Part shown: positions 2,187 through 15,121 of the stretch, piece by piece
Layout of the letters: each line of letters opens with the position of its first letter
Position numbering within the stretch: the stretch's first letter is position 1
Assembly (NCBI GenBank): GCA_021730105.1
Contig: CP072538.1
Coordinates: 1,053,161 to 1,117,160, forward strand
Direction of reading: 5' to 3'
DNA from: Candidatus Ruthia sp. Plio_17_S18
Lineage (GTDB): Bacteria; Pseudomonadota; Gammaproteobacteria; PS1; Pseudothioglobaceae
DNA: 64,000 nucleotides
The notes under the pieces: generated by a model
Database searches by the model: none
What the model was told of the DNA's origin: nothing
The model's input: the letters and a program-made list of their open reading frames with translations, nothing else
Translations under genes and position numbers: made by a program

Positions 2187-2356
2187 AACAAAAAATATGC
2201 TAAAATTAGGGTTGCTGTGAAGAATATGCCAATAAAAAATTAGTTTTGGGCTACAGCTGCTATTTATATCTATGTTGTTGATTGATTCATTGTCGGTTTT
2301 CGTACTCTATAAAGGTGGTCTATTTTTTCGGTAATTTTTAACTTATAGGAGACACA

Positions 2357-2560
2357 ATGTCTACAACAGGAAAAGTCAAATGGTTTGACGCAAAAAAAGG
2401 GTTTGGTTTTATTGAACAAGAAAGTGGTGACGATGTATTTGTTCATTTTCGCGCTATTCAAGGTGATGGCTACAAATCATTAGAAGAAGGTCAAGAAGTA
2501 GAGTTTGACCTAGAAGATGGTGAAAAAGGTCCGCAAGCTGCGAATGTTTACCCAAAATAA
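2357..2560 (+). CDS. Cold-shock domain protein, CspA family
   Basis: This 67-residue single-domain cold-shock protein is an RNA/ssDNA chaperone that melts secondary structure and antiterminates transcription. The RNP1 motif KGFGFIE and the RNP2 motif DVFVHF are intact, and length and fold order match CspA/CspE. The start is set by a good ribosome-binding site (taggagacac) just before ATG. A stretch of about 170 bases between the dead permease and the ATG could hold a long leader as in other csp genes. A clear terminator follows, so it is probably transcribed alone. Confidence 0.95.
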
Positions 2561-2582
2561 TTTAATAATTATTTAAATAAAG

Positions 2583-2609
2583 AACCCAGTTTAATAGCTG
2601 GGTTTTTTA
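2583..2609 (+). terminator. Rho-independent terminator after the cold-shock gene
   Basis: AACCCAG and CTGGGTT form a 7-bp stem around an 8-base AT-rich loop, directly followed by a run of T. It lies 23 bases after the cold-shock stop codon. Confidence 0.85.
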
Positions 2610-2932
2610 TTGTCTACAATAATATATCTTATTCTAATAACTACTCTCTCCAACCGTTTCTCATACCATAGCCTACTTTATATCTATAAGTGCATTTGTT
2701 ATTGCCATTTAAATTCTATAGCAAATAAGCCATGATCTAAATTTAACTCTGTTTTTTATTATTTGTTGTTATAGAGTTGAGCCAAACCATATTATAGTGC
2801 GGGCTAGCCAATCCCCAATACAAATAACCCCATAAAGGTTGTATTTTTTCGCCACACTCTTATTGACTATTTAGATAGCCATCCCAACCATTTTTGATAT
2901 TTTCCCAACCGCCTTTCGTAGCACTCTATACT
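2610..2932. other. Non-coding stretch, probably gene debris
   Basis: No credible gene is visible. The minus strand has short open stretches (for example LYWGLASPHYNMVW near 2.8 kb) broken by stops. They may be the eroded 3' end of the unknown gene that follows, but no family is recognisable. Confidence 0.5.
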
Positions 2933-12470: not shown

Positions 12471-13211
12471 TTATACAATATTATCAATATCAATAAATTG
12501 GTGCTTAAGCCCAAACTTTTTACTAAGATGTTGGCATAGGGCTTGCACACCGTAACGCTCAGTGGCGTGATGCCCTGCGGATATAAAGGCAATATTGTTT
12601 TCTGTAGCAATCGCTGTGATTTGCTCAGAGACCTCACCCGTTATAAAACAATCAGCACCAATATTAATTGCGTGGTCGATGTAGGTTTGTGCACCACCGC
12701 TGCACCATGCGATGCGTTTTAATATTTTATCATCCGCGCCAAAAACTAACGGCGTACGGCTCAGGGCTTGTTTGATGGTATTGGAAAAACTGCCTAGCGT
12801 GGTGTCAACCTCCCCTTGCCAGACTAGCGTATCGCCAATTGGTACTGGGTTTTTAATGCCAAAGCGTTGGGCTAATTGAGCATTGTTGCCAACTTTTGGA
12901 TGCACATCGAGTGGCAGGTGGTAGGCGAATAAATTAATATCGTGATCTAATAGTGCTTTAATGCGGTTTTTCTTGATGCCTGTTATGGCTAAGTTTTCAT
13001 TTTTCCAAAAAAATCCATGATGGACAAACAGCGCATCTGCTCCTTCATCAATCGCTCTATCGATCAAATCTTGATTAGCACTCACGCCTGAGATGATTTT
13101 ATCAATATTAGATTTACCTTCAATTTGTAGACTATTGGGGCAATAATCATCAAACGCACCTACATTAAGATAGTTATGACAATATGCGGACAAGGTCTTA
13201 TTTTCAATCAT
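12471..13211 (-). CDS. Nif3-like dinuclear metal centre protein (YbgI/GTP cyclohydrolase 1 type 2 family)
   Basis: This is a member of the widespread Nif3/YbgI family, toroidal hexamers with a two-metal site. The biochemical role is not settled. Metal-ligand motifs are present: VHHGFFW near residue 65, YHLPLDVHP near 100, and the C-terminal GHHATERYG. At 246 residues it matches E. coli YbgI. The start overlaps the end of hisC by 8 bases, so it is translated from the hisC message. Confidence 0.92.
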   Translation of the reverse strand: MIENKTLSAYCHNYLNVGAFDDYCPNSLQIEGKSNIDKIISGVSANQDLIDRAIDEGADALFVHHGFFWKNENLAITGIKKNRIKALLDHDINLFAYHLPLDVHPKVGNNAQLAQRFGIKNPVPIGDTLVWQGEVDTTLGSFSNTIKQALSRTPLVFGADDKILKRIAWCSGGAQTYIDHAINIGADCFITGEVSEQITAIATENNIAFISAGHHATERYGVQALCQHLSKKFGLKHQFIDIDNIV

Positions 13212-14265
13212 AGAAGCGTTCTACAAGGCTGATAAAGGTTTGATTTTGTGTTTGCGTGCCAATGGTAGCGCGCAAACAATCTGTTAATGCTGGGGCGGTG
13301 CTTAAATCTTTAATTAACACGCCGTTCGCTTTTAAAAACTCAAACAAAAGATTGGCATTGGATGCTTTGAATAAAATAAAGTTAGCTTGTGATGGATAAA
13401 CTTGCAAGCCACTAATTGCACCGAGCGTGACTGACAATTCTGTGCGTTCTTTGAGAATAGTTTGTGAGTTTTTGTTGATTTCGTATTTTTCTTTGAGAAG
13501 AAAATTCGCACTCGCCTGTGTGAGCACATTGATATTATAAGGCAGGCGTAGTTTTTCTAATGCTGTCACAGTGTCCTGTGTACCAATTAACAAGCCTAAG
13601 CGCAAGCCAGCAAAACCGATTTTTGACACGGTTCTAAGCAATACTAGATTTGGATATTTGTTGATATCTAGCAAGAAGCTGTCATTGGCATAGGCATAAT
13701 ACGCCTCATCAAGCACCACTAAAGCATTGGTTGAAGTAATAATTGTCTCGATAACTGTTCTATCAAATGCATTGCCTGTTGGGTTGTTTGGATAGGCAAT
13801 AAAAATTAACTTAGGGTTATGAGTTTCTATCGCTCTTTGCATGGCATCAGCGTCAATCTCAAAATTATTTGTTAATGCAACACTTTGATAATTAAGCCGT
13901 GTAAATTTTGCAATCATCCCATACATGACAAAACTTGGTTCAACGCTTAGAATAGTGTCTCCCGTATCACATGCCAATGCCAATAGTTGAATCAGCTCAT
14001 CCGAGCCATTACCCAGCAACACGCCAAACTCATTAGGAATATCCATTAACGCACGCAAAGTTTGTTGCAACTCGTTGCTACTGGCACTAGGATAACGGTT
14101 TAGTTGTACATTTGCCAAATACACCAGATACTGCCCAATTAACGCATCTGTCAAGGGAAATGGCGACTCCATCGCATCCAACTTCACCATATCATCAGAA
14201 GGGGGCACATGATAGGCATCAATTGCTTTAATATCAGGGCGTATCCAGTTGTTAATAAAACTCAT
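13204..14265 (-). CDS. hisC: Histidinol-phosphate aminotransferase
   Basis: HisC transfers an amino group from glutamate to imidazole acetol phosphate. It is a fold-type I PLP enzyme. NPTG appears in YPNNPTGNAF, the PLP-binding Asp/Tyr in VVLDEAYYAY, the Schiff-base Lys in TVSKIGFAGLRLG, and the Arg of the C-terminal LRATIGT. At 353 residues it is full length. Its start lies in the first copy of a 107-bp tandem duplication. An extra copy of the first 18 codons sits just upstream, and the TGA of a short chimeric frame overlaps the true ATG. Confidence 0.96.
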   Translation of the reverse strand: MSFINNWIRPDIKAIDAYHVPPSDDMVKLDAMESPFPLTDALIGQYLVYLANVQLNRYPSASSNELQQTLRALMDIPNEFGVLLGNGSDELIQLLALACDTGDTILSVEPSFVMYGMIAKFTRLNYQSVALTNNFEIDADAMQRAIETHNPKLIFIAYPNNPTGNAFDRTVIETIITSTNALVVLDEAYYAYANDSFLLDINKYPNLVLLRTVSKIGFAGLRLGLLIGTQDTVTALEKLRLPYNINVLTQASANFLLKEKYEINKNSQTILKERTELSVTLGAISGLQVYPSQANFILFKASNANLLFEFLKANGVLIKDLSTAPALTDCLRATIGTQTQNQTFISLVERFYD

Positions 14266-14425
14266 GATGGTGATTGTCGATTGGGATGATATTGCATTTT
14301 ACCGATACTTTTGGCATTATAGGCATCAATTGCTTTAATATCAGGGCGTATCCAGTTGTTAATAAAACTCATGATGGTGATTGTCGATTGGGATGATATT
14401 GCATTTTACCGATACTTTTGGCATT
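14212..14425. repeat. Perfect 107-bp tandem duplication across the hisC/thiD junction
   Basis: Bases 14212-14318 are repeated exactly at 14319-14425. Each unit contains the first 18 codons of hisC and the last 18 codons plus stop of thiD, which overlap as ATGA. In the ancestral single-copy state thiD would have been coupled to hisC. Now the outer copy serves thiD and the inner copy serves hisC. The complete identity points to a very recent event or an assembly error. Confidence 0.97.
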
Positions 14426-15121
14426 TAATAAAGTTTGATAGGTATAGTCCAATGCGCGCTTGCAAGCAATTTCAACACCTAAGCCCGATGCAATTAATGC
14501 GCTTATTGCACTTGAAAGTGTGCAACCAGAACCGTGATAACTACCTGGTAGCTTTTGATAGATAAAACTTTGAGTGAGTGTTCCATGGTGATACAAGCAA
14601 TGCTCAATCATATCATCAGATGAATCAGTTTTGGTGAGTAAAATCCAGTTGCAAAAGAGTTTTTTAATGGATTTTTGCTCATCTTGCTCATCCGCCAAAA
14701 TTTGTAATTCTGCCAAATTAGGCGTGATAACTTTTACCAGTGGTAACAATTGATGCTTTAAAGCATCAATTAAAGCAGAATTTAAAAAATCATAATCACT
14801 ACTAGACTTCACAATTGGATCAAGAATGATGGTTTTATGTTTAACCAACTTAGCAATGGTTTTAATTTGCTTAATTGAGGATAATAAGCCAATTTTCACC
14901 ACTTCAAAATCAACATCAGCTTGTAAATGCTTAAATTGCTTAATCAGCAAATCACAATCTACTTCAACCAAACTTTCAACTGATGCTGTATTTTGCACAG
15001 TAAGATTAGTAGTGATAACAAGTGGTGTTACTCCAAATTGATTGATGCTTTCAATATCAGCAACCAACCCTGCACCACCACAAGGGTCAAGTCCTGATAA
15101 AACTAAAACTGTATCATTCAA
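14369..15121 (-). CDS. thiD: Hydroxymethylpyrimidine/phosphomethylpyrimidine kinase
   Basis: ThiD phosphorylates HMP and then HMP-P to HMP-PP for thiamine synthesis. It is a ribokinase-fold protein with [11 protein letters not shown] at residues 9-19, an [15 protein letters not shown] segment and the [12 protein letters not shown] anion hole with its catalytic Cys/Ser region. At 250 residues it is a normal length. Its start overlaps the end of dsbA by 8 bases, and its stop overlaps a duplicated hisC start as ATGA. Confidence 0.94.

Follow-up and report, generated by a model that had tools for sequence, protein, structure and literature searches.

Short tandem duplications that arise independently of RecA are known in bacteria, and many of them have short exact repeats at their breakpoints. 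The attenuator leader peptide of his operons is encoded by a short ORF that precedes a his gene, contains a run of His codons and is accompanied by attenuator structure in the RNA. Huber et al. (2019, PMC6728339; 2023, PMC10666635) described ATGA-overlapping gene pairs that are coupled by termination-reinitiation. Reporters in E. coli and Haloferax indicate that reinitiation requires overlaps or very short gaps (PMC10666635). A 38-base gap lowered reinitiation by 80–90%, or abolished it, in the E. coli reporters, and the authors note that with ~20 bases coupling was nearly lost in both species studied (PMC10666635). These are the known systems closest to the locus described here.

The window analyzed, a stretch of 64,000 nucleotides, comes from a genome (G000) that consists of a single contig of 1,231,801 bases with 37% G+C. 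The bacterium looks like a deep-sea clam symbiont, and elsewhere in the window (2276-2610, plus strand) there is an Rfam match to the cspA thermoregulator (85.8 bits; gathering threshold, 78). thiD and hisC lie within a compact operon on the minus strand, where the genes from 16586 to 12471 are packed, neighbors either overlapping or being separated by a 2-base gap, except at the duplication. The features of this region, in the order of transcription, are as follows.

16586-16209, minus strand, ORF (ORF table)
16237-15734, minus strand, ORF (ORF table)
15731-15114, minus strand, DsbA-like gene (ORF table)
14369..15121, minus strand, thiD, phosphomethylpyrimidine kinase, 250 aa, intact (ORF table; Pfam PF08543, E 3.2e-51)
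14319..14425, minus strand, unit 1 of the duplication (transcribed first), end of thiD including the stop codon, followed by the first 18 codons of hisC; exact repeat
14262..14372, minus strand, chimeric hisC/thiD ORF, 36 codons (ORF table), sharing ATGA with thiD on its upstream side and with hisC on its downstream side
14316..14344, minus strand, candidate promoter-like site CTGATA-17-TATAAT, with its -10 hexamer made at the duplication junction
14212..14318, minus strand, unit 2 of the duplication, copied thiD 3' end followed by the real start of hisC; exact repeat
13204..14265, minus strand, hisC, class I/II aminotransferase, 353 aa, intact (ORF table; Pfam PF00155, E 9e-49)
13211-12471, minus strand, NIF3-family gene (ORF table)

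A preliminary description of this DNA reported two identical 107-bp units, and this proved correct to the base. The maximal run of period 107 is exactly 14212-14425 (214 bases, 2.0 copies, 0 mismatches), with the two units adjacent, head-to-tail and identical at 107/107 positions, as expected of the near-identical copies of a tandem duplication. A repeat of this length is far beyond chance. Each unit had been said to carry the hisC start and the thiD end, and the codon layout of both bears this out: on the minus strand, a unit comprises the last 19 codons of thiD, including the stop, plus hisC codons 1–18, with ATGA common to the two parts (57 + 54 - 4 = 107). thiD ends within unit 1 and hisC begins within unit 2. 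Because the duplication spans the thiD/hisC ATGA junction, both genes retain their full sequence, and the outer flanks join thiD (upstream of unit 1) and hisC (downstream of unit 2) as they do in congeners.

What the duplication adds is a short reading frame. The extra hisC ATG (14372-14370, minus strand) opens a frame of 36 codons, the stop of which (14264-14262) is a TGA overlapping the real hisC ATG at 14265, exactly as had been described. The claim that an ATGA-type junction is kept on either side of the short ORF also holds, with ATGA at 14372-14369 (thiD/chimera) and at 14265-14262 (chimera/hisC). Both are thus 4-base, same-strand stop/start overlaps of the kind found in termination-reinitiation pairs, and in this respect they match the pairs of Huber et al. 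The middle member here is, however, a 36-codon product of duplication and not a conserved gene; a Pfam search placed the chimera in no known protein family. Such a frame is easily generated. Of all 30–300 bp duplications across the junction, 32.6% yield a frame running from the extra ATG to the TGA that overlaps hisC, since almost every length of 3n+2 has this result. Hence, the relay geometry is no evidence of selection, and the idea that this frame was selected for is unsupported.

If the chimera is translated, a ribosome finishing thiD would restart on the 36-codon frame, end at its TGA and then restart on hisC. Coupling would thereby persist via one extra step of termination and reinitiation. 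In this case the terminating ribosome would sit at –4 of hisC; otherwise, the thiD stop would lie ~100 bases away. At the hisC start, the Shine-Dalgarno match extends over only 3 bases, which is the length most often expected by chance; in 31 of the 73 ATGA pairs of the genome it reaches 4 bases or more. Given a Shine-Dalgarno match at chance level, and given that reinitiation needs overlaps or very short gaps, the relay frame would make a difference to coupling. Reinitiation usually occurs less than once per termination, and a second step should therefore lower HisC somewhat. The likeliest effect would be a ribosome relay running from thiD via the chimera into hisC, with coupled HisC output somewhat reduced.

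Comparison with related genomes supports the view, already put forward in the preliminary description, that the tandem duplication is recent. All 11 of the other genomes (species) of the genus have a single thiD-hisC junction, with no second copy, and the same is true of wider-family loci in which thiD precedes hisC and the junction is readable. A degenerate pattern for the duplication junction matched 1 of 83 family genomes, namely G000, and was absent from the other 82. The duplication is thus specific to this lineage, its relatives being single-copy. With one copy collapsed, thiD-hisC of G000 differs by 5.8% from the nearest congener. There are 37 substitutions private to G000 versus four relatives, and two of these fall inside the unit and are present in both copies. 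Both units share these private substitutions and show no difference from each other, which argues that the duplication is young. The terminal branch of G000 measures 0.041 changes per site. If both copies had already existed at the start of this branch, about 9 differences between them (2 x 0.041 x 107) would be expected, and none is seen, which places the event late on the branch. The absence of differences bounds it at roughly the last third of the terminal branch, if gene conversion is ignored.

We consider it fairly likely that the locus reflects a single, recent and private 107-bp tandem duplication, caused by a replication error independent of repeats, maintaining coupling by relay and near-neutral in effect. 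The period-107 identity is exactly 107 positions long and so does not extend past the breakpoints; the parental ends share just ATG, one base beyond the breakpoint. Since the breakpoints lack exact identity, a replication error unaided by repeats probably made the duplication; the one species that carries it belongs to the genus of vesicomyid-clam symbionts (Ruthturnera/Ruthia). Like short RecA-independent tandem duplications, the event is exact, adjacent, two-copy, private to a lineage and young, but it differs from many of these in having no short exact repeat at its breakpoints. Breakpoints with zero identity are equally compatible with an assembly artefact and with a blunt replication error. 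In such an artefact, contigs or reads with a 107-base overlap would have been joined end to end and the overlap left unmerged, which would also account for copies that are exactly identical, edges with no extra identity and absence of the duplication from all relatives. On the other hand, the site is internal to one complete contig, away from its ends, and apart from 14212-14425 the whole genome holds no exact tandem duplication with a unit >36 bp and no near-exact one with a 45–1000-bp unit. A genome-wide artefact pattern is ruled out by the lack of any other exact tandem duplication with a unit >36 bp. We regard an artefact at this one site as a serious, if unlikely, alternative.

Events of this type are ordinary for the genus, as several are present in a sister species (G007). 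There, 1.2 of 1.45 Mb were scanned, and exact or nearly exact tandem duplications of 64, 89, 240, 378 and 222 bp were found at about 8621, 271474, 892230, 1059234 and 1197228, respectively. The 378-bp duplication sits within a 1550-codon open frame of repeated domains. In another congener, G004 (1,160,782 bases), none with a unit of at least 30 bp was seen in the 0.4 of 1.16 Mb scanned. Stepwise loss of recA has been published (PMC3202245), and the pattern in the genus agrees, with an open recA frame in 7 of the 12 genomes and no match in the other five. recA loss as the reason for persistence of the repeat is ruled out, as G000 has an open recA frame (901161-901949). Repeats like this one are expected to collapse easily, which, with the open recA frame, is a point against a genuine recent duplication, the explanation we favor. 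Most likely, the duplication is near-neutral and unstable.

Other readings assign the new segment a regulatory role. Its short ORF placed just before a his gene recalls the attenuator leader of his operons, and could be taken for a peptide regulating HisC. However, the chimera has 1 His codon in 36, with no run of such codons, and lacks attenuator structure, the RNA folding worse than shuffled sequences (z +1.5). No terminator-like site was found between the chimera and hisC, and Rfam gave no match there. The single His codon and the lack of unusual RNA structure mean that the chimera is no his attenuator; these data rule out an attenuator or leader RNA, and we give this reading almost no credence. 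It is also improbable, though less so, that the duplication created an internal promoter from which hisC is transcribed from its own start. At the duplication junction, the ancestral TATCAT has become TATAAT; on the coding strand, a 17-base spacer separates it from an upstream CTGATA. The site (14344-14316) matches the consensus at 10/12 positions, with a perfect TATAAT and a 4/6 –35-like hexamer, and lies ~50 bases before the hisC start; the implied transcription start is near 14309, ~44 bases before the hisC ATG. Its score is in the top 0.02% of positions, and just 0.9% of possible duplications here would create an equally good site at their own junction. Against this, the match was noticed post hoc and scored with simple sigma-70 hexamer weights. 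An equal score is reached in 1.6% of coding windows and 5.1% of free upstream windows, and promoter-like sites are not in excess across the region overall (22 versus 17.9 expected). We treat the site as a weak lead. Very improbable is a one-step rewiring, in which the duplication would have added both a translated relay frame that preserves reinitiation and a working promoter, so that hisC gained independent transcription in a symbiont with a shrinking genome, and would have been retained for that reason.

Our favored reading is, in sum, that the duplication is probably an ordinary, roughly neutral recent mutation (or an assembly error) and not a new regulatory device. If real, it offers a clean natural case of a mutation at an overlapping gene junction in which neither gene is damaged and one coupling step becomes two, and it could be used to measure the output cost of a second termination-reinitiation step. 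Otherwise, the mutation is of an ordinary type that the sister genome shows too.
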